Shown in pieces: positions 25,821 to 54,353 of a stretch of DNA of 64,000 nt. Each line of letters begins with the position of its first letter. The stretch's first letter is position 1. Source of the stretch: Dolomedes plantarius (lineage: Eukaryota > Arthropoda > Arachnida > Araneae > Dolomedidae); contig OU015491.1 in assembly GCA_907164885.2 (NCBI GenBank), positions 117,697,431-117,761,430 on the forward strand. The letters are read 5' to 3'. Made by a program: the position numbers and the translations under genes. The notes under the pieces are model-generated. The model ran no database searches. It worked only from the letters and a program-made list of their open reading frames with translations, and was not told the DNA's origin.

Positions 25821-27153
25821 CACTCATGGACAAAAGAATTAGCGCACCAAGAAATAATTGCGGGATCGTAACGAAACTTGCAATGAAGGTACATGTCGGG
25901 GAGATATGCAAATGATTAGAAATGCAGCATGATTGCGCATTACGCATAGCCGGTAGAGGGCGTTGAACATCGTACTCTATGGAGTATAAAACAGGTAACC
26001 AAAGCTTATTTGAGTGTGCTGAATCATTTACAAAGGAAGAGCTGAGATAGACATGCCATTACGCCGTGTTCGAAGACAATATAAGCAGTTGTCGCAGTTT
26101 GAGAGGGGGGGGGGAATCGTTGGGATGATGGAAGCTGGGTGGTCAGCTAGGCGAGTAGCTCGTCAATTAGGCCGCTCTGATTGTGTTGTGAGGAGGTGTT
26201 GGGACCAGTGGACCCGAGAGATGTCTTGTACACGAAGACCAGGATCAGGACACCCTCGACAGACCAGTCGTCGAGAAGACCGCCACATCGTAAGAAATGC
26301 AAGCGTACAGCCAACTGCTTCATCGGCCTCCATCCAGGCACAGGTAGCACCTTCACTAGGGGCCTCTGTGTCTTCTCTAACCATACGAAGGCGCCTGGCT
26401 GAAGGACAGTTGATATCGCGGCGCCCATTACGTGTGCTGCCCCACCCATCGACACCTCCGTTTGGAGTTTTGCTGCGCACGAGGAAACTGGACTGCAGCG
26501 GAATGGAACCAGGTCGTCTTTAGCGACAAATCCAGATTCAATCTCGGCAGTGATGACAATCGTGTGTGATGGTATGGGGTGCCATTGCCTACAATACACG
26601 GTCACCCCTCGTATTGTTCCGTGGCACCATGACAGCCCAGCGGTATGTTCATGAAATCCTGCAACCACATGTGTTACCACTCATGCAACGGCTCCCAGGA
26701 GCCATTTTCCAACAAGACAATGCTCGGCCTCATACGGCAAGGGTGTCACAAGACTGTCTCCGCACTGTTACTACCCTTCCTTGGCCTGCCCGATCCCCAG
26801 ATTTGTCTCCAATCGAGCATATCTGGGATCATTTGGGACGACGAGTTGGGCATCCCACGAGTTTGAACGAACTAGAGGCAAGGTTACAGCAAATATGGAA
26901 CGAAATGTCTCAAGACATCTTACAGAACTTGTATGACTCAATGCCCGATCGTATCGCATCGTGCATTCGCGCTAGAGGGGGGTCCAACGGAGTATTAACT
27001 CCTCCGTTCTTTTGCTTTTTTCTCTGAAATAAATTATCCTTTTTCTTTGATTTTCTTATCATTTACTTATATCAAAGTAGTCATTACGTATCTAAAATTT
27101 CGTTTCATTTTGACGACTCCTTCTTGGTGCGCTAATTTTTTTGTCCATGAGTG
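25821..27153 (+). mobile_element. Tc1-like transposon, both ends present
   Basis: Starts CACTCATGGACAAAAGAATT and ends AATTTTTTTGTCCATGAGTG, inverted repeats of about 33 bp. TA lies at both borders (25819-25820 and 27154-27155). Its 1,333 bp carry one broken transposase gene. Confidence 0.93.
26053..27027 (+). pseudogene. Tc1-like transposase, frameshifted
   Basis: The first frame (26053-26523) gives the paired-like DNA-binding region, SQFERGGGIVGMMEAGWSAR, VARQLGRSDCVVRRCWDQW and a basic GSGHPRQTSRRED linker. After a frameshift near 26450, another frame carries WNQVVFSDKSRFNL with the first catalytic Asp. About 30 codons are then missing, and 26566-27027 continues with MVWGAIAYNTRSPLVLFRG, QQDNARPHTA (second Asp) and RSPDLSPIEHIWD (catalytic Glu). 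I count only 32 residues between the second Asp and the Glu. Frameshift and deletion make it inactive. It is the sole gene of the transposon at 25821-27153. Confidence 0.9.
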
Positions 27154-28525: not shown

Positions 28526-29501
28526 CTATATATGCAGAAATCCTCTACAAAAATTAACCCTGTTAGCTGAATGTTTTGACATTTTCCAGAGCTAGGAAAA
28601 TATTTGGACAACATTTATTAGCATAAAAGTTCAAAAGTTTGCCAACCCTGAGATTGACAAGAGATTTTTGGCAAATTTCAGACTTTTAATATGTAAGCTA
28701 CTTCCATGAGCATAAAATAAAAAAAAAATAAACATGATTTCGAATTTCAACTTAGTTTTAGCATTTTCATACTATTATTGTATAACGGAAAGTAAAAATA
28801 AGAAAAGCATTCTTGCTTCGAATCTAGAGCTTTCCTCTTTCCAATTCTCTACACACTTCAGACGGAGTATCAATAGAACTTGCATATCGTAAAATCCCAT
28901 GGCAGAATGTCTTTTCTAATTAAGTGTCCCAATAGTACATGTTTGAATTTTGTTTTCGGCATTTGAAAGTAAACTTTTAAAAAATACATGACGTTTTTGC
29001 ATTAAAAAATTAAAAATATTTTAAATTAATTATACTTTCGAAATTTCGAAACGACAGACATAACTTGCTAAAATGTTGTGTAAAAACATTACAAAAATGC
29101 TTTCAAAATTTAGAATACTAAGCGCAGATCTTGACATTTAACGCTTTTGAATTTATTTTATGTAGTAATTATAAATTAGCAGTGTAATTATAAATACCTT
29201 GTTTCAAATTCAAAGACGCCTGCCTGCTTTAGGATTTCTCCCCGCACCGTATTTTGAGGAGGATATCATAAAGGGAGTAACTCTTGATATGCATTAGATA
29301 GAGAGAAGGTTGAACATTGTAGGGGGTGAGGGGTAAAGGCATTACTAGAGTATGCTAAATTTAGTTGGAGGAATTTAAGTGTTTCCCTTCCCTTTATTGT
29401 ACCCTGTTCGTATTCCAAATTACTTGGAATCCAAAGCAAAATTAGTTAGATGTTCAAGTTATTCATCATTCTTACTTACACACACACACGCACACACACA
29501 T
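28526..29501. other. AT-rich DNA, nothing recognised
   Basis: No coding or transposon signal. A short CA microsatellite at about 29479-29500 ends the stretch. Confidence 0.5.
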
Positions 29502-29502
29502 A

Positions 29503-30628
29503 CTGGTCAAATTTATCATGACCACCTACTCAGTATATTGCTGGAATTATCGTTGGCATGGACTCTACGAGATTTAACTTGAGATGGTTTGATGAATCTG
29601 AGATCTTATCGAAAAAACTGCCCTTCCCAGTTCTCTAAGATCTGATGTTTCTGGATCCAGCTACCTGATACCCCTTTCGACCTCATACCACAAATTCTCA
29701 ACTGGATTGAATTCCGGTGATTATGGAGCGGAATTAAGCAAGGTAAAGTCTCCTTCGTACTCCTCAAAACATCCGGGGGCAGTGTAAACCTTGATATTCC
29801 CTTAGTCAGCGACATTGTTTAAATGCCTTTTGGGATTCAGACGTTTATCCACGCAAATTAAAAGACCCAAACAATGCCAGGAAAACCTCCCTCAAACTAT
29901 AACATTGCATTCACCAGCTTAAAGCGTTGGGGCAATGCACTTAGGGTCAATGATTTCGTGCTGTTTCCTCCATGTTTGCACTCAGCCATCTACATGGTAT
30001 AGTTTAAAATGGGATTCATTGGACAACATTACTCTTTTCCATTAATTTACTGTCCAATCCTTGTGATCCTGAGCGAACTGGAGACTTTTAATCTTGTCAG
30101 CTGCAGACGGAGGTCTTTTGTGCAGGTCCTTGGCTTCCATACCGGATATACGGCGTAATGTGCGGCAAACAGTACTCTTCGAAGCCATCGAAGTTGGCCC
30201 TTTATTAAGATTAGCTGCAATTGGGCGTACTGTTACCCTTTTATTGGGCTGCATAAGTCAGGAAACTTTCCTTTCATCTCGAACATCCAGTATTCGGTGA
30301 TGACGACACACCAAAATATGACCAGGAGTTTTGTTTCTTAGCTAACTCTTTGTAAACATTAACAAAAACAGCTGCTCTCGAACACTTTCTAAGAAAATAA
30401 GTTTCGATGATACTAGCCACTGCATCTAGTATCCAGAATTATTCTCCATTTAAAGTCTTTTTACTCGCGTCTTTCATCTTTCCTTCACTATCAATATACT
30501 TCAAATGTGTTTAGAATCATTCAGCAATCTCTTTTTATATCAATTTCATCCTATACCAGCAACAGCGGGATGCCATAGCTGATTTGCATAAAATTATCAG
30601 GTGGTCATAACAAATAAGCCCCTCACTG
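29503..30628 (-). mobile_element. Tc1-like transposon, second family, degenerate
   Basis: The right end ...GGGGCTTATTTGTTATGACC (read from 30628 on the minus strand after CAGTGA) and the left end CTGGTCAAATTTATCATGAC share TATGACCACCT/CATGACCACCT as diverged inverted repeats next to TA. The minus strand carries decayed transposase: VTVRPIAANLNKGPTSMASK and STVCRTLRRISGMEAK (30254-30042), then WKRVMLSNESHFKL, a Gln-Trp-Arg-Lys block, and SPEFNPVENLWYEVERGIR near 29720-29660. The first catalytic Asp is Asn in LSNESHF, the QQDNAPCH-type block is missing and several stops occur. It is unrelated at family level to the Tc1 at 25821. Confidence 0.8.
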
Positions 30629-30629
30629 T

Positions 30630-31035
30630 ATATAACAAAAATTACAATTTTGGGGAGATTCTTAATATACAAATAATACCCACAATCCACCTGTATTTAA
30701 TCTTACAAATGATCTATTTTTCCTCCGACATTTTTTTATTTAAAGTGAAAAAAATAGAGAATGTCTGCCCTAATTTCTCATTGTTTATTTTAATGTATAT
30801 GCAAATAAGGTTTGGTTGCGGAATTTTCTATTCTCTTTCGTGATTACAGCACATTTTCGTACTTAATTTTCATAAAGATTTATGAAGTATGAGGTTTCAT
30901 CTACAGGAAGTTAATCACTAGTTATCCAAAACTAAATTGATATTATAAAGTGTCGTTCCTACCTGTAATGAATAGCACATTAATGTAAGATAATAAATTT
31001 TTTTTGAAATAACAATATGAAACAACACACAGTAC
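30630..31035. other. AT-rich DNA, nothing recognised
   Basis: No supported feature between the Tc1 and the TTAA MITE. Confidence 0.5.
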
Positions 31036-31039
31036 TTAA

Positions 31040-31450
31040 GGCTGCTGTGTACTTACCGCATTGGTTTTTCCCACCTCAGTGTTAACCTATGGAGAAATGT
31101 GTCTTCTATTTACAGCTACATAAATGCTGATAACCAAAAAAATGGTATTTTCAGGTAGCCTGACTTTCCTACACCTTACAACAGGATTCATTTTATAAAT
31201 TTCGTCCACTAAAGGAATTAAGGTGCATTTAAATCACACCACCAGATTTTTCCCCAAATAATTTAAATTTTAACATATTATTTGCATTTAAAAAAAGAAA
31301 ATGTCCCAAGGTGTAAAATTTCTTTCTCTATTATGGAGTACAATTTTTTTAAAAAAGAAAAAAATCTTTAAATCTAAGTTGGCAAACCTTGGACAAATTT
31401 TCTCCATAGGTTAACACAAAGGTGGCCGAATCCAGAAGTACACAACAGCC
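31040..31450. mobile_element. Complete TTAA-type MITE (411 bp)
   Basis: GGCTGCTGTGTACTT at the left and AAGTACACAACAGCC-type arm at the right form inverted repeats of about 55 bp, including TTAACCTATGGAGAAA on each arm. TTAA lies at 31036-31039 and 31451-31454. TTAA duplication is the piggyBac hallmark, but the ends do not match the piggyBac at 52895-54353, so another transposase mobilised it. Relatives are at 20310-22078 and 23921-24282. Confidence 0.9.
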
Positions 31451-31510
31451 TTAACTTTTTCCTTACGGGGTGGGATAGCATGTATCTCCAGAATACCGGC
31501 CCAAGAAGGA

Positions 31511-31635
<125 letters not shown>

Positions 31636-31681
31636 AATTGGCTTTCTTCGTTGAATATTGAACACATCTGTTTACATTAAC

Positions 31682-32224
31682 ATTGATTTATTATCGACGA
31701 GTCACAGGACAAAAAAACAATTACAATTATCATAAATTACACACCATTTTACGTGTTTACGGAGCCGTCTGCTAGCACGTTATATTTTGATAACCTCTTT
31801 CTTTCGTGGCGTCTTTCTCTCTGTCTGTCGTCATGCGTTTTGCGCAGTTTGCCGAGGATCTCCGTTAGGCGGGAACACCTCTGATTTATCCCTTGCTGTC
31901 GCCACAGCTCTCTCTCTATATATCGCACTCGGGCATCCTGGCACGACAGGTCCTCCTGTCGACGGGGAAATCCAAAGGAACCAAACCTAAAAAAAAACAA
32001 GAAAGGAGAAAAACAAAACAAAAACATGCATGGTCGTCTTAAAGCTATACATTATCGTCGTTGTATAGCAATTGCTCGTCATAGGTGCCATAGTCTTTGC
32101 CGTCATTGAAAGATCATACAAAACAAAGAAAAGAAAAAAGTCATTAAAAATAGTTCAGAATCATGATAGAATATCCATTGTTCAAGTTTAAGTCGTCGTC
32201 GTAAAGGAATTGTATGTACCGTCA
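31682..32224 (-). mobile_element. Probable 3' non-coding region and LTR of gypsy
   Basis: This lies directly downstream (minus strand) of the integrase C-terminus. It is non-coding and contains a purine-rich stretch and GC-richer DNA with AATAAA near its far end (about 31687-31692). That is where a 3' LTR should lie, but with no second copy in the window the borders cannot be fixed. Confidence 0.4.
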
Positions 32225-32540
32225 CTAGGTGTTTGGACAACTTTTAAGTTGATCAGCGGCTGTAGATGTCAAGTTTGGACTATCGTGCAGACCAACTTTT
32301 CGGACGTCATATCTGTCACGTGATCGAGCCTTTATGATTTCGTAAGGACCAAAGAATTTAGGGCGCAATTTGAGCCCAGAACCAAATTGGTTACGTTGAA
32401 TTGCTACATGATAGGCAGTTGCTTGTTTCCGACGTTTGCGGTACTGTCTCTTGTTTTGCTCTTGTAATTTCAAAATGCTTTTGGCGTCGTTGCGAAGGTG
32501 ATTAGTGGCTTGAAATGTCATGTTGATAAACTCGTCTTTT
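32225..32540 (-). pseudogene. Ty3/gypsy integrase C-terminus
   Basis: The minus strand reads LKLQEQNKRQYRKRRKQA, then IQRNQFGSGLKLRPKFFGPY, YDVRKVG and NLTSTAADQLK. Tyr/Arg-rich sequence followed by a GPY/F module (LRPKFFGPYEI) is diagnostic of the C-terminal part of Ty3/gypsy integrases of arthropods. Zinc finger and catalytic DDE core are absent. Instead, the sequence directly upstream is myosin tail. It ends at a stop after KSCPNT. It is the 3' coding end of the gypsy copy that also includes the protease scrap (33492-33575) and probably the gag remnant (40201-40569). Confidence 0.88.
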
Positions 32541-33491
32541 AAGTCACGAACCTGCTTTTCATAGGTTATCGTTTTTCTTCATTTTGTTCATCTCGAGCTG
32601 GCAAGTCTCTTTCTAATTGAGTCTTTAGTGTTTGCATATTCAATTTAGTGTCTCAGTGCTTTAGTGTGCTTTAGTGTGTGTAATCAGTCTTTAGTTTTTG
32701 CATATCTAAACGTAATTTGGAATCGTCAGTTAACTGAAATTCATCTTCAAGTTCTTCAATTTGGTTGTCTAATTCGATGTTAAGATCTTCAACCTCTGAC
32801 TATAATTTTTTCTTTGATTTATCCAGTTTTTCATGAACCTTTTGTAATTCATCTAATTTGTGCTGCAGTATATCAATATCTTTCGACATCGTCTTCTTTT
32901 GTTCTTCTAACAAAGCAGAAGCATGTGCTTCCTCTTCAGCTTTCTTTTTATATTCTGCAACCTAGACATTGGCAATAGCTAATTTTTTCTCTAAGTTTTT
33001 CCGTGCTTCTTCCTCTTCAACTACTTGCTCTTGTACACTTTCACATTCTTATTCAAGATTGCGCTTAGTCTTCTCTAAAGCATTTTAGCTTTTTGCACTG
33101 AATCTAACTGTTCATTTATTTTTTCAGTGGCTACTGTAGGTTTCTGGTTTAAATCACGAATCTGGTTTTGATGTGCAGCAGTTTCGTCTTCCAAGTTCCT
33201 CTTTAAAATATTGAGTTCTTCCTCTATTTTAGTTCTCAATGCTTGTTTTGCAGCTGTTGAATCCATAGAATCAAGAAGTTTATTCCTCAAAGCTTCTAAC
33301 TCCTCATTTAAGTTTCTTTTCTGCTTTTCAGACATTGCTAAATCTTCTTGTAAGTGAATCAATTCAGATTCCAAAGCTTTCTGTTTCGTTTCAGCTTCTT
33401 TGGCTTGATCATTCAGTTTATTCTTAACTAACCGAGATTCTTCCACTTCTCGCTGAAAATCTTTCAACTGACTCTGCAATTTTTTGAGTTG
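32541..33491 (-). pseudogene. Non-muscle myosin II tail, rearranged, inside gypsy
   Basis: The minus strand encodes coiled-coil sequence with clear non-muscle/smooth myosin heavy-chain landmarks. In reading order: QLKKLQSQLKDFQREVEESR with LIHLQEDLAMSE (late tail); LDSMDSTAAKQALRTKIEEE with LNILKRNLEDE (early tail); EEEEARKNLEKKLA and VHEKLDKSKKKL with LNIELDNQ (middle); and ELEDEFQLTDDSKLRLDMQ with RDEQNEEKR and VRDLKDE (shortly before the late block). Compared with intact myosin the late block comes first, so the order is circularly permuted. About 110 residues are missing at each of two joins. There are no introns, but at least three in-frame stops and a frameshift. It is a dead mRNA-derived copy. 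Protease lies directly upstream, integrase directly downstream. Confidence 0.85.
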
Positions 33492-33575
33492 GTGGGTTTG
33501 GTCAGTGATCATTGTAGTCTCGCTACCTGAATCGTGAAGCCCATGAAGATCAACATTGTTTATCTTTATTGGATA
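33492..33575 (-). pseudogene. Ty3/gypsy aspartic protease fragment
   Basis: The minus strand reads PIKINNVDLHGLHDSGSETT and then MITDQT before the myosin frame begins. DSG is the catalytic Asp motif of retroviral-type proteases, in the usual setting of a hydrophobic strand and a following Thr/Ser. The upstream part is cut off by a hAT end at 33576. The frame runs without break into the myosin segment, so a chimeric polyprotein was once possible. Confidence 0.75.
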
Positions 33576-34683
33576 CAGTGGCGTAGCTAGAACTTTTGCC
33601 GCCCTTTCTAAGTCAATCAATTGGTGGTTTTTATAAATTAATAAACATAAATAAATAATTGTAATTGAGACAAACTATAGGTGGGGAACTTTTTTACCAT
33701 TGGATGCCATATTTAAATTAGGCAGTAATAAAGGATGCCGCTTAAGTTGATATACCTATAAATGCAATTTTTATAAAGACCACAAGAAACTTACGGAGGT
33801 CGCAATTTCCCCACCTATGAGACAAAACATATACCTAATTTATAAAAAAAAATTCCATAAAATGCTTTATTTTATATTTTTATATTTATAAATAAAAATA
33901 AATAATTTCATTTCTTTTGGATAAACAAACAAATTGTATACACATGTGTATGTAAACAAAACATATTTATATATTTACTCTTCTAACTTTCATAGTAGAA
34001 AAATCGTGTATAATGCTCTCAAAATTTATATTATTTGTAATTTCTTGTTCTATAGACAATATTGCAAGATTTTGTAGTTTTAAATCTCTCATTGTGGAAC
34101 GAAGATAATTTTTTATCAACTTCAATTTAAAGAAGCTCCTTTCGCAACTAGCGACACTAATAGCAATTGTTAAAAAATATTCTTAGCAAAATTACAATGT
34201 TGGGTACAGAATTTTCCAATCTATACTGTTGAATAAATTTTAGTAGATTAAGAGGGCCTTCCTTCCCGTCTTTCCAACGTTTTGCGTTTTCTTGTAGTAC
34301 AGGTACAGCCATAAAAACCTGGATCCTTTTTCTTTCAATATAAACTGTTCTTTATCAATGTCAATAAAGTCATTTATTTGACATTCAAATTCTTCATTTA
34401 GTAGGTTACATGGTATTACACACGAATATTTTCTTTCAAGGACATGCAACTGATCAAATTACAATTTTATAAGGGACTCAGATGGAAAAAGAGTTTTCGT
34501 CACGAATGGTTACAAAATTACGATTGGTTAGCTTCTTCCAGTAAACTTAAGGGTGGACTTTGTAAAACTTGTGTTACATTTCGACCAAATTTAAGAAGAG
34601 GGATTTTTGGATCTTTCATTGTAAAACCTTTCAAGAATTACAAAGACTTCCATGAAAATGCAAAAGAACATATGTGTTTTTAG
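33576..34683. mobile_element. hAT element pieces in opposing orientations
   Basis: CAGTGGCGTAGCTAGAAC at 33576 is a hAT end. The minus strand at about 34180-33978 gives SVASCERSFFKLKLIKNYLR and LAILSIEQE, the hAT dimerisation region of a ZMYM1-like transposase. On the plus strand, 34444-34683 gives FRHEWLQNYDWLASSSKLKG and LCKTCVTFRP, the N-terminal TTF-type zinc finger of the same class. The two ends of one transposase are therefore present but head to head, implying an inversion or two copies. The LINE begins directly after 34683. A 144-bp MITE is nested inside. Confidence 0.75.
33675..33818. mobile_element. Short hAT MITE, family C (144 bp)
   Basis: Ends CTATAGGTGGGGAA and TTTCCCCACCTAT, with a perfect 8-bp duplication GAGACAAA (33667-33674 and 33819-33826). 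It shares TAAATTAGG.AGTAATAAAG and GTTGAT.TACCTATAAATGCA with the longer element at 57791-59232. Confidence 0.9.
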
Positions 34684-34972: not shown

Positions 34973-36232
34973 ATGGAGGAGTCGCCGGCTGACGACAACT
35001 TCTTCTGGTCTGCTAAGCTCCAGCCGCATGAATTTTTGAATGAAGCTTTGGGTCAAGGTGTAGGAACTTTAACAATTTTTCTTGAAACTCCTGCAGGGGC
35101 TATCCCAATTTCACACCCCAAAAAACTGAAAGATGAGCTGGTCAGTCGCGTCGGTCCCAAGATATGTTTAAGTTTTTTAAAGGCCACACGTAATGGAAAA
35201 ATCGTTTGTGTCACGGAAGATAACAATACTGCCATCCAATTGTTAAAAATTAATGAAATATTGTCGGTACCTATCGTGCCCAGATTAAATCCGGATACAC
35301 TTACGTCAAAGTTTTTACTTTATGATATCCCGCTAAATGTCACCTGCAATGAAGTTGCGGAAGAACTGTAAGAGAATGGCATTCCGGTTTTTGAAGTCCG
35401 TCATTTTCAGAAGCTGACGGGAGGTAATCGTGTTCCGCTTAAAACCATGCTGGTAACAAAAATTGGTCAACAACTCCCTGACAAGATTCACTTGTGGTTC
35501 GAAGAAATACGCATACGGCCTTTTATCGATAGACCCCGGCAGTGTAACAATTGTTTCCAATTCTCACATTCGACTAGGGCATGTAAAAACGCTGTGGTAT
35601 GCTATAAGTGTGGAGAAGAACATGCTACTCAATCGTGCCAGGCTGATAAAGTGAAATGTAGCAACTGTGGCGAGGGCCATGAAGCAATCAGCAAAAGTTG
35701 CAGCGCATATATCCGAGAAGCGGAAATAAATAAATTCAAATGCCTTAACCATTTAACGATCACAGAAGCTCGGCGTCGTTATGCACAGAATAATAACAAT
35801 AGGAAGGCACCTTCCTATGCGGGGGTTGCGTCTCCCAGCTATAGGGAGGAAAAGATTAATCTACAGGAGGTAACCACGAATTTTGAAAAGAGCATGGAAA
35901 GATTCGAGGCTAAGTTTGAGGAAACCCTCCAGAATTTTTTAAGTACTCAAGTCGAAACTTTCAACAGAGTCATCGAAATAATGACATCATCCTTTACGAA
36001 CATGTTACAAAAATTTCTCCCCCCGACGCTGTCGGGTGCTCCGCAAACTAGAGAAAAAATAAAGAAAAAACAGAGACTGTCACAAGCTAATTCGCCATCG
36101 CCCCTGTCCTCTACTGCTGGGGACTTCGGTTCGATGGATTTCTTCGGGACCACCGATCTTGATAATCCCAGTCCTCCGCCTGGGCCGCCCCTGTTTTTTG
36201 AGGGGGCCTTTCCTGACTCCCCTCCCCTCTAG
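34973..36232 (+). pseudogene. LINE ORF1 (gag-like, three zinc knuckles)
   Basis: Nucleic-acid-binding ORF1 protein, about 420 codons from the ATG at 34973, which opens MEESPADDNFFW. One TAA at 35369-35371 interrupts the frame (EEL-stop-ENGI); otherwise it is open. The N-terminal 170 residues have an RRM-like layout. Three CCHC knuckles follow: CNNCFQFSHSTRAC, CYKCGEEHATQSC and CSNCGEGHEAISKSC, the typical I/Jockey-type trio. The C-terminal part has a predicted amphipathic stretch (FEKSMERFEAKFEETLQ) and a basic block KIKKKQR, then a Pro-rich end. In LINEs this protein coats the RNA and is needed for retrotransposition. ORF2 overlaps its last bases in another frame. Confidence 0.92.
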
Positions 36233-39200
36233 GGGGGTGGGCTGTCTGGCGGCCTTCTTTTGGTTTGTCCGTGTTCCTTTTTGTTTTTGGTCTGGCTTCT
36301 TTTTCTGTTGTGTCGTGGAACGTTCGTGGTGTTCGGGCCAGGGCCGCTTGGCTCCGGTGTCCGGTTTTTGCTTCTGTTCCTGTTTTGCTTACTCAAGAAA
36401 CCTTCCTTACTCCGGCTCTTTCTTTCGCTGTCAATCAGAAAGTCCTTTATCGTAGAGATAGACCTGGAGGCGGTGGGGGTGGCGTCCTCACCGCGATCCA
36501 GCGTAATGTTACTTCCATCGACCTGTCTCTCCCCATTCAACATCCTTTCATCGAGTATGTGGCTGTTAAATTATGGGTCAACAATACTCCTCTCACCATT
36601 GTAAATATCTACAATCCCAGATGCAGTTTTGACCTTGGCTTTTTCGTTTCTCTTCTTGATAATATTGAACCACCTTTTATTATCATGGGGGACCTAAATT
36701 TAAATTTACTAAAACGGGGTACTCAAGGTCTGGCCCCGGTGAATCAGTTTCTCGACTGGGTTGCTAGAAATGATCTTTGCATTGTTAACAGGGATATTCC
36801 TACCCGTTTCATGGCTAACAATTCACCTTCTGTACTCGATCTTGCTATCATTTCTCCAGACTTATTCCCTATTGTAAAATTTTATATCCACCCTGATAGC
36901 TTTGACTCGGATCATTGTCCAATGTTCTTACAGCTTTATGGCCCTTACACTCAGGGTGTTACTACTACCTTTCGACTTCGGACCAATTGGACTAGGGCTG
37001 GCCGAGATTTAAATAATAGCATGAATTGCCATAACATTCTTTCCTTCTCGGATCTTATGTCTTCAAGTAAACAGGCTATCTCAGATAATAATCACTCTCA
37101 AAGAATTACTGGGACGTCCTACCCACAGTGGTGGAACTCGAGGTGCTCTTGGATCTTGGGACAGAAAAGGAAGTATCTTCGGCTGGCTAAACGGACTTTT
37201 TCGCGTGATTACTGGTTACAGTATAAAAAATTTTCAAGTCTTTTACGGCGTCATATAAAATGCAGCATTCGTAGCTTTTGGAACAAGCTCTGTAATAGTC
37301 AAAACAGTATGCAGACCATCTATCGCATTCTTAAGAAGCAATCTACCCTACAGGCTTCTGGGGGGACTTTGCTTTATCGGGGTGTTTGTATCAATTGCCC
37401 CTATCGTCAAGCTATCCTTTTCGGCCAGAACCTTTACCCTACTTCACACCACCCTCCCCTTCCGCACGCTCTTACCAATGTAATGGAGGATTTTAACAAC
37501 CCTATTTCTACTCTGGAGCTCCAGCTTGCGATCAAGGCTACTAGACCCACCACTCCCGGGGAAGACGGCATCTCGGCAAAGCTAATCAAGCAAATTGATC
37601 CTAATAACCTCTGCAAGATTGGTGGCATTTTTAATAATCTCCTTGATACGGCCAGTGTCCCGAGTCAGTGGCGCTCTGCCATTATTCTTCCCATTCTGAA
37701 ACCCAAGAAGCCCAGTACCCTGATTTCTTCGTATCGCCCGATTGCTCTTACTTCGGTTTGGAGTAAAATTTTTGAACGCATTATTCTCCATCGTCTCACT
37801 CGCTGGTCTATCAGCCACAATGTTTTTCCTCCCGGCCTCGGTGGCTGTCTCCCCAATCGGGACAGCCAATCTGTCTTGGCCAAGATGTACCTTGATATCC
37901 AGGAAGCTCGCCTGAACAAAAAATATATTCTCCTTGTTAACCTAGACATTGAAAAGGCGTACGATTCCGTTTGGATCGATGGGTTGATTTACAAGCTGGC
38001 TTCCGTTGGTGTTGGTGGAAACGTTTTATTATGGATTTCTAAGTGGCTACAGGATAGGAACATTAAAGTGAAATGGCACAATCACATTTCCCCCCCTCAA
38101 AAGGTTACGTCTGGTATTCCTCAGGGTAGCGTTCTGTCCCCTTTTCTTTTCTCTATGTATATGCTTGATATTTTTGAAACGACCCCGTCCAGGGTTACTG
38201 TGCTGACTTACGTTGATGACATTTTTGTATATGCTATTGGTGATGATCCTGCTACCACTTGCAATGATTTGCAAACAGCTTTTGATAACATTCTAAAGTG
38301 GTGTAATTATTGGAAGTTTTCTCTCTCCCCATCGAAGAGCACGGCTATAAATTTTTCAAGGGGTAGGTCTCCCTGCCCTGAAAGCCGTATCGCTGGCCAT
38401 CCTATTCCGTGGAGTAAAAAGATCAAAATTCTGGGTTGCGTCCTGTCGTCAACCATGTCCACCGCGCCTCAGGTTCAGTATCTGCGTGAAAAAACTCACC
38501 GTCGGCTAAACATGCTAAAAGGTTTGGTGTATAAAACTCGTGGCGCCACTAGCCGGACTCTTATCCCAGTCGTCAATGCGGTTATACGCAGTGTTTTTGA
38601 CTATTGTGGTTTCCTGTATTCCCAGATTTCAAAGAGTGACGCTAATACCATGGAGGCCTTATACTCCATTGCCCTCCGTCTGGCCACTGGTCTCCCCCGG
38701 TGGACGCCGATCCCTGTTCTTCGGGCTGAGGTTCACCAAAACAGCATTGCATGCCGCATTCAGCACCTTAATAAATGTTTTCTTATTAAACACCTGTCGC
38801 TCCATACCAAATCTTTTCTTTATAGTAACCTTCATAGGTGTGTTTCGGGAAACTCATCCAATATCCCTGATTTGCTGCGTACCATGAATATCACTATGGA
38901 TACGTACTGTCTGGGCTCAAGCTTTTTCCTTGACCCTGGCCGCACTTTTCTTTCTCATCAGGTGGAGATTGTTACGCAGGGTCTCCCCTTTCAAATTAAA
39001 GATCTCCCGAACTCTGTGATTTCAGCTTTATGGGCTGAGTTCATCAATAATTAGCAGCCAAAGTGCGTTTTGATCGCCACTGACGCCTCCAAGACCGACG
39101 ACAAAGTGGCGATTGCGGCCTTAAACCACTCGACTAATTCTGGGAAAGCCATGTTAACCCATCGCCTGAACTCAATCTTTACCGCGGAAGCTCTAGCTAT

Positions 39201-52894: not shown

Positions 52895-54353
52895 CCTTTT
52901 ACATGCCACACTATGATCAAGGAATAAAGTACCATATTTTGCTGCGTAACTTTGGTCGATAACTTCCAGGAAGTCGGTCCAACAGGTGTACTCCACTCAT
53001 TCCTTTATTATATAATTTTATAATGTAAGGTTAAGGTAAATCAACTTTTATTTTAGCTCGGACATATCTTTTTGCTCTTCTTAATGGTTCGTGAGTGATA
53101 AAATTTGATGTAATAGTTACAACAAAACTATCGTTCCAATGGCACATATAAACTTCTCCATCGCATCGGTAATCAAACTCTCCACGTTGAAATTTCGATA
53201 TTTCTTTTGCTGTTTTAAGAGAACATTGTCCCGTTCTGGAATCTCGCACTGTGCCGATTGCCTTAAAGCCTTTGTTAGATAAATCTGTCAGCAGACTGTA
53301 CGATGTAAAAAAAGTTATCGAAAAATATTTTGCGTTTCTCTGGATTGTCAATAAAAGATAATAGTTCGGAGACAACTTTTGATCCAAGTGGCAAATTTTC
53401 ATTTTTCGAACTTTTTCCACCGTAGATAGACATAGCATAAGGATAACCATTTGCTGAGCAGATCATCCAAACTTTGAAACCAAAGCGAATTGGCTTTCCA
53501 CGTATGAACACCTTAGCCGAACGATGTCCATAACACGGAACCATGGATTCATCGATACTCATATTTTCATGAAAAAATCCAAATTGACGAAAATTTTTTC
53601 CAACCTCTTTATAAAAGGAAGAAATTTTTCCTAATTTATCGCCTGGTTCCAATTTACTATTATCAACAATGTGGAAATACCTTTTTAACATCCGAAATTT
53701 ATTTCTGGGCATTGTATTGTTAACAATTAGGATATGCAAATCTTCCTGTGAGCTCCAATATGTATTTTCATCAGGTACTGAGTGGTAGCCACTAAACAAC
53801 AGTAATCCAAGAAACTGCCGAATGTCATTTGCGTCGACGTCTAAATAGTCTCCTTTTTGTAGGGCACACAGCTTTGTAAGTTCGGCTGAATTTTCTAAGT
53901 AATCAGACGGCAGAATCACTGATTGACGGCAGAATCACTGATCACGTGTGATATCACTGCTTTTGTATATCGTTACATGCCAATGTTCCTTTTTTGGAAC
54001 ATTGCATTTTTACGCAGTCTTGAGGAAATATTTCTTGTTATTATTTTAATTTATTTTATTAACTCGTTAAACTTGTCCTTTGGAAGTACGATGGGGAAAT
54101 TTTTGGGTGGATTTGAATTTTAAAAGGAATTTTATAAAAATTTTTTTCTTACGTACTGTAAAAATTGTGAAAAAAGCTGATTTTTAGAAATTTTTCTACG
54201 CTAAAATATTCATATTTGAAAAAAAAAAGTCAAAAAATCAATCATACCTTCTATAATATACGGTAATTTTTTCAAACTGACAGATATCACAGTTTATTTT
54301 TAAAAAAATATTAAACATGGTGTTCCAAAAAAGGAACATTGGCGTGTAAAAGG
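52895..54353 (-). mobile_element. piggyBac-like transposon, both ends present
   Basis: Perfect TTAA lies at both borders (52891-52894 and 54354-54357). Terminal inverted repeats CCTTTTACATGCCA (left) and TGGCGTGTAAAAGG (right) match except for one base. A further copy of the end motif, TTACATGCCAATGTTCC, lies internally near 53974, as expected of subterminal repeats. The 1,459 bp carry a broken transposase on the minus strand. Confidence 0.93.
53031..53919 (-). pseudogene. piggyBac transposase, truncated and frameshifted
   Basis: Cut-and-paste transposase of the piggyBac (PGBD) group. The first frame (53919-53275) has DIRQFLGLLLFSGYHSVPDE, MPRNKFRMLKRYFH, the catalytic block MSIDESMVPCYGHRSAKVFI (first Asp in IDES) and KIFFDNFF (second Asp). 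After a frameshift near 53305 the second frame continues TSYSLLTDLSNKGFKAIGT, GTVRDSRTG and YMCHWNDSFVVTITSN (third Asp in WND). The N-terminal ~100 residues and the C-terminal Cys-rich domain are missing, and about 300 codons remain instead of 500-600. It is a dead copy in its own transposon. Confidence 0.9.

Follow-up and report, generated by a model that had tools for sequence, protein, structure and literature searches.

The window analysed here (the whole stretch of 64,000 nucleotides from contig OU015491.1 of the spider Dolomedes plantarius) carries on its minus strand a copy of a hybrid retroelement, in which a tail segment of host non-muscle myosin II stands between a protease stub and an integrase end. 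The copy belongs to what is very probably a non-autonomous long terminal repeat (LTR) family of Ty3/gypsy type, generated by template switching of a gypsy RNA with the spliced mRNA of a host myosin II gene (hereafter the C7 gene) and subsequently amplified. An initial annotation of the window had proposed either template switching onto a host mRNA or capture of a gene by the retroelement, and both fit the evidence presented below, namely spliced myosin, LTR pairs enclosing the copies and missing pol domains. It had overlooked that the element occupies at least 45 places in the genome, that its myosin is reordered and that the open frame is under selection.

Composition of the hybrid element

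Reading the minus strand from 33575 to 32225, a protease-like stub (DSGSETT), a myosin tail and an integrase C-terminal end (LKLRPKFFGPY) follow one another, as had been described from the window alone. The claim that the protease frame continues unbroken into the myosin is likewise borne out by a single open frame (33674-33075, 199 amino acids) which crosses from one into the other. The supposed gypsy protease fragment is indeed retroelement protease-like, although it comprises only the N-terminal stub. The parts of the window copy are as follows, in the direction of the element, with exons of the host gene written e1, e2 and so on:

33492..33575, minus strand: N-terminal stub of a retroelement aspartic protease (DSGSETT); Pfam gag-asp_proteas, E 0.11, below the cut-off
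33327..33491, minus strand: myosin piece A; approximately 1644-1697 of Myosin-11 chain 9fu2; end of host exon e8 and e9
33049..33326, minus strand: myosin piece B; approximately 1138-1236 of Myosin-11 chain 9fu2; end of host exon e1, e2 and start of e3, of which e1 and e2 were read in the C2 paralog of the donor only
32761..33048, minus strand: myosin piece C; approximately 1354-1438 of Myosin-11 chain 9fu2; end of host exon e4, e5 and start of e6
32531..32760, minus strand: myosin piece D; approximately 1547-1604 of Myosin-10 chain 9z3w; host exon e7 and start of e8; edges placed by reading of alignments
32225..32530, minus strand: integrase C-terminal (GPY/F) end, open and in-frame; a relative has the full integrase
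31928..32224, minus strand: untranslated stretch from the integrase end to the 3' LTR
31632..31927, minus strand: 3' LTR of the element, starting TGCGATAT at 31927 and ending TTCACA at approximately 31632; it aligns to both LTRs of other copies

The open frame of the family was printed in full for three copies, which are not the three longest (765 amino acids in L021, 699 in L028 and 593 in L019), and frames of 502-658 amino acids are found in other copies. It begins within Gag and passes through a CCHC knuckle, the protease stub, which ends DSGSEATMITDQTH, and approximately 303 myosin residues to reach the GPY/F end of the integrase. In the 765-amino-acid frame, Pfam recognizes zf-CCHC above its cut-off and Myosin_tail_1 with E 3.1e-66, and Ty3_capsid is matched with E 1.8e-5 (24.7 bits, below the cut-off of 29.1). 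No reverse transcriptase (RT), RNase H or integrase core was detected by Pfam in the 765- and 593-amino-acid frames, and no complete protease of its own was found in the frames tested; the element is therefore a non-autonomous derivative of Ty3/gypsy, not a full member. Spliced host sequence lies within LTRs and in-frame with gag, as in a transducing element of the Bs1 type. Regarding the integrase end, the Pfam match is weak (SH3_Tf2-1, E 0.002, below the cut-off), and its protein is 82% identical to the end of a frame at C1:138680525, which is a full integrase with H2C2 and rve. The copies read lack GDKV before AIQ (or AVQ) in this end, whereas the autonomous relative described below has it, and L021 lacks 11 further residues that were found in all eight loci compared. 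Such deletion differences among copies suggest that the family has subfamilies.

Copies, LTRs and pol-bearing relatives

The genome searched was the window's own assembly (2.78 Gb, 390 contigs). It yielded 368 candidates, of which 40 were scored, and all 40 places carry the myosin stretch at 88-100% identity. An integrase-end match stands beside the myosin in nearly every one, strong in 38 and weak in one more, on many contigs, so that the junctions noticed in the window are shared with other copies. Recurrence at this many loci points neither to chance nor to a local misjoin. A search with the integrase end contributed five further myosin-carrying loci (L031, L032, L033, L034 and L036), its sixth locus, L035, being already among the 40 scored places. 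The family size is consequently at least 45 genomic places with the myosin part (40 + 5).

The element is approximately 4 kb long. LTR pairs were found in 16 of the 20 loci fetched (two of the pairs partly aligned), with full LTRs of approximately 292 bp whose ends, printed for 13 loci, are TG...CA with base changes in a few. Kimura two-parameter distances between 5' and 3' LTRs extend from 0.011 to 0.108, indicating that insertions range from recent to old. It can be observed that the flanks are TA-, TG- or CA-rich at the 13 loci with printed ends (among L011-L028), least clearly in L019. TG repeats often abut the TGTG start of the LTR, and CA repeats its CACA end. The pattern looks as if insertion into TA tracts had been followed by slippage growth from the LTR tips. 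In 14 of 16 copies whose sequence was printed here, the site at which a polypurine tract would be expected, some 17-33 bases ahead of the 3' LTR, has a recurrent small palindrome, GACAGGAGGACCTGTC, with variants, plus GGATGCCCGAG.

A relative within this genome possesses RT, RNase H and the integrase core at the place where the hybrid lacks them, which upholds the corresponding claim of the initial annotation. Two such relative loci, read in pieces as L037/L039 and L038/L040, contain gag, RT (RVT_1), RNase H, H2C2, an rve integrase and the same integrase end, and L040 also has a protease with VDTGSQATL. The 5' region and gag of the hybrid are 92.5% identical to L040 over element positions 154-1931, and the integrase ends of the two match at approximately 78%. 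The relative resembles Ty3/gypsy elements of spiders and insects, its integrase being 46-66% identical to the 120 matches listed of 900, the best of those listed coming from an ant and orb-weaver spiders (Trichonephila, Araneus and Lasius entries).

Spliced host origin of the myosin

The window frame at 33674-33075 matches Pfam Myosin_tail_1 with E 1.3e-33. Among solved structures, smooth/non-muscle myosin II is matched best (E 4.8e-23) and other myosins lie far behind (Myosin-4 at E 5.2e-5 and weaker), so the initial assignment to myosin II, rather than to a generic retroelement or another coiled-coil protein, holds. The myosin of the element is also closer to non-muscle/smooth than to striated heavy chains. 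Two genes of this myosin II type are present in the assembly, located at approximately 11.127-11.140 Mb of C2 and approximately 169.88-169.91 Mb of C7. DNA identity to the C7 gene amounts to 88-90% for piece A, 85% for piece D, 80% over 44 bases for part of B and 83% over 93 bases for part of C, whereas the C2 paralog reaches 66-72%. Of the two, C7 is thus the closest donor found for the myosin of the element. A foreign, horizontally acquired myosin is not needed, since the host's own C7 gene provides a better match than the C2 paralog.

The join between e8 and e9 is exact with respect to the donor gene, in which these exons are approximately 11 kb apart, and the join before e6 coincides exactly with the start of donor e6. 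The remaining exon joins are consistent with the exons of the C2 paralog. The myosin, reported as intronless from the window, is therefore spliced, and its template was an mRNA. Measured on an identical stretch of 141 bases, the mean difference is 11.3% between the donor exon and 24 copies and 7.2% between copies (276 pairs). Because the former value exceeds the latter, the capture is probably older than the insertions sampled and took place in this host lineage or one close to it. The donor divergence likely underestimates the neutral distance, since the donor gene is presumably constrained.

Selection on the fusion frame

Selection was assessed by sorting the differences between copies into classes and comparing the counts with those obtained when identical base changes were placed at random. 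The relative ratio of nonsynonymous to synonymous changes (N/S), taken over variants present in at least two of 26 copies, was 0.85 for the myosin (P 0.10), with lower values for gag (0.56), the integrase end (0.55) and the part spanning knuckle and stub (0.54). In the same copies, stops within the myosin are depleted, both among shared variants (4 against 13.3 expected, P 0.001) and among singletons (17 against 30.6, P 0.0025). A set of 18 copies, picked by DNA similarity and excluding the window copy, its duplicate and six protein-match loci, contained 15 myosin stops against 32.9 expected, and none of 2000 shuffles gave a number as low. Here the relative N/S of the myosin was 1.02 for all variants and 0.81 for shared variants, values that leave strong purifying selection on the myosin residues unsupported, and 0.50 for shared variants of the integrase end, which is constrained. 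A raw Nei-Gojobori dN/dS of 0.62 for the myosin is without correction for the mutation spectrum. Stops were not depleted in the integrase end of the 18 copies (7 against 7.3 expected) and were weakly depleted in gag (6 against 11.3, P 0.06). Depletion of stops in the myosin together with near-neutral N/S implies that the frame through the myosin is kept while its residues drift.

Frameshift indels were also counted. Across 15.5 kb of myosin from 17 copies found by DNA similarity there is a single one, compared with 41 across 5.4 kb of their 3' untranslated sequence; this set is biased since the query contained the myosin. For six copies picked by the integrase end, among them L035, which also belongs to the 40 scored places, a hand tally came to 4 for the myosin (approximately 5.1 kb), 3 for gag (1.4 kb) and 13 for the 3' untranslated sequence (1.9 kb). 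The 3' untranslated stretch has indel hotspots and is an imperfect control, and weight was put on the stop depletion instead.

We read these patterns of variation as selection that would preserve an intact polyprotein or RNA; any selection for a coiled coil would be loose at most. The frame may be retained for the fusion protein or for stability of the RNA. It is quite conceivable, although we lean slightly against it, that the frame is kept only through decay of transcripts with early stops or through the need for the downstream integrase end, the myosin being a neutral spacer. The near-neutral myosin residues beside depleted stops, the constrained shared variants of the integrase end and the lack of significant depletion of changes to proline or glycine in the myosin all speak for a spacer of this kind. 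It accords less well with the absence of losses of core hydrophobic residues from the variants in at least four copies (3.5 losses expected, P 0.02 in one of 18 tests) and with the best heptad phase, which is unchanged across the switch from A to B, though it shifts further on. That a Gag-myosin fusion is both made and useful, its coiled coil joining host non-muscle myosin II filaments or stabilizing mixed Gag particles, appears rather unlikely. Were the fusion protein useful, it would give a helper-dependent element an edge over the autonomous parent in transport or packaging. The question arises for what reason a parasite would maintain an uninterrupted frame across a cytoskeletal coiled coil of its host.

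Order of the myosin pieces and break points

In the chain numbering of smooth/non-muscle structures in the PDB, piece A corresponds to 1644-1697, B to 1138-1236, C to 1354-1438 and D to 1547-1604. The host order is B-C-D-A and the element order A-B-C-D, which is a circular permutation of the former with gaps. Piece A ends inside donor e9, the break from B to C connects an interior point of e3 with one of e4, and the break from C to D does likewise for e6 and e7. Bases common to both templates are AGTGA at the break from B to C, ACCAAA (six) at that from C to D and ACGAG at that from D to the integrase end, where 12 adjoining bases of e8 are lacking. As far as can be judged from the sequence, sharing of 5-6 bases at three breaks fits repeated template switching by RT in a repetitive coiled-coil message.

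A circular permutation could also be produced from a circular RNA of myosin exons, approximately e1-e9, one lap of which would give A-B-C-D and exon skips the gaps; retrocopies derived from circular RNA and flanked by LTR sequence have been reported, according to the review PMC5408686. However, a back-splice is expected between exon edges, and the end of A and the breaks from B to C and from C to D are all mid-exon in the donor, with piece B starting nine residues before the end of e1 in the C2 paralog. Because the breaks are not at exon edges, we reject a circular template as very improbable. A processed myosin pseudogene dropped into one gypsy copy by the machinery of a long interspersed nuclear element (LINE), or an assembly misjoin, would explain the intronless myosin but is rejected as extremely improbable, since the junction of myosin and integrase end recurs at 38 of 40 scored places, the printed junctions hold no poly-A tract, the pieces are out of order and LTRs enclose the whole in 16 of 20 loci; two of the doubts attached to the initial annotation, a misjoin and a single-copy pseudogene, are thereby removed.

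Proposed route of capture and amplification

Template switching between gypsy and myosin RNA would have proceeded as follows. Spliced non-muscle myosin II mRNA of the C7 gene would have been packaged alongside a gypsy RNA, and reverse transcription of the two, in a single ancestral event or a brief succession of events, would have yielded one cDNA. The growing strand would have switched templates at short homologies, in the succession integrase end, e8/e7, e6-e4, e3-e1, e9/e8, protease start and gag. The resulting product would have been devoid of RT, RNase H and the integrase core and would have retained the LTRs, gag and an open frame of Gag, protease stub, myosin and integrase end. Since LTRs and gag are kept and the enzymes are absent, movement would have to be in trans, and amplification to at least 45 places most likely took place through autonomous relatives, for which the pol-bearing relatives would be the obvious suppliers of helper proteins. 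The RNA would be packaged by Gag or by the Gag-myosin fusion, copied by supplied RT and inserted by supplied integrase. Defective transducing retroviruses and, in outline, Bs1 are packaged, copied and integrated by supplied proteins in this way. A mechanism in which the template is switched, at microsimilarities, between an LTR element and a packaged mRNA is described in PMC5408686.

It should be noted that several points weigh against this route. The break from A to B was compared only with e1 of the C2 paralog, the copies themselves mostly read CGTGA at the break from B to C, and 5-6 shared bases may not exceed chance in a repetitive coiled-coil message. The break from the stub to piece A is without a known retroelement partner. 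Furthermore, the stub is unmatched by the protease of the relative (VDTGSQATL) and its source was not located, so that a third sequence source is needed. Both autonomous loci read are interrupted by stops, and thus no working present-day helper was seen. Target duplications are mostly unreadable in the repeat flanks, a 4-base TGTA in L019 being plausible, and no polypurine tract was recognized before the 3' LTR and no tRNA primer assigned. Near-neutral amino-acid change in the myosin argues against a sequence-specific function of this part. Moreover, the constraint on gag and the integrase end could have been imported through recombination with autonomous relatives, which, however, does not explain the depletion of stops inside the myosin.

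Comparison with known systems

Defective acutely transforming retroviruses carry fusions of Gag with cellular protein in place of pol and are helper-dependent. The spider hybrid similarly has Gag fused to host sequence that replaces pol, and its movement in trans would make it dependent on a helper. It differs in that it has no known effect on cell growth, forms a family amplified in the germline and carries a coiled coil, not a signalling gene. Maize Bs1, the classic example from plants, reportedly exists in few copies, with the captured segments fused with gag. It is comparable to the hybrid as an LTR element with captured host-gene segments in a hybrid frame. However, Bs1 combines segments of three genes, whereas the spider element contains those of one gene, reordered, in an animal and at no fewer than 45 places. 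Capture of segments of host genes by the LTR retroelement Bs1 is described in the pertinent part of PMC13317346.

In comparison with metazoan retrocopies mediated by LTR elements, the hybrid differs in having become a multiplying family with an open fusion frame. Such retrocopies are said to be mostly single or polymorphic. The likeness lies in the joining of mRNA to LTR-element sequence at microsimilarities (Tan et al. 2016, as cited in the corresponding passage of PMC5408686). Among protein matches, judged by their listed domains, none of the 15 for the 765-amino-acid frame and none of the 5 for the 593-amino-acid frame is a Gag-myosin fusion (approximately 8,000 candidates scored for each). 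No gypsy-myosin hybrid appeared among the titles listed in the literature searches, which for broad topics covered the 8-12 best-ranked (10 of 2,207 in one case). Capture by LTR elements is known; within the reach of these searches, what is unusual here is the amplification in an animal, the scrambled order and the kept fusion frame. Host-gene capture by LTR elements is a proposed route for the gain of cellular genes by retroviruses. Because one animal genome contains the best-matching donor gene together with a relative that has pol and numerous copies of the hybrid, the steps of capture, the switch points and the later selection become directly readable.

State and surroundings of the window copy

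The window copy is decayed, with 4 stops among its 299 myosin codons, two 1-base deletions and a 40-base local duplication at 32646-32685, within piece D. Its gag and 5' LTR were not found within the 64-kb window. A close duplicate, L010, is situated approximately 0.5 Mb away on the same contig (C2:117217000-117226000), with 95-97% identity over 28534-34458 (approximately 6 kb); unlike the window copy, it retains gag and a match to the 5' LTR. The features adjoining the element are the following:

33576..34458, minus strand: insert between gag and the protease stub, common, of 19 other loci compared, only to the duplicate L010
34459..40075, plus strand: non-LTR (LINE) element with endonuclease and RT, adjoining the broken end of the window copy; outer limits approximate
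31511..31631, no strand assigned: (TA)n(TG)n microsatellite abutting the LTR, as read in the sequence

The endonuclease and RT domains of LINE type are positioned at 36217-39054. Elsewhere in the window, a DDE_Tnp_1_7 transposase at 53275-53934 is of piggyBac type, and a DDE_3 transposase at 26557-27027 is Tc1-like.
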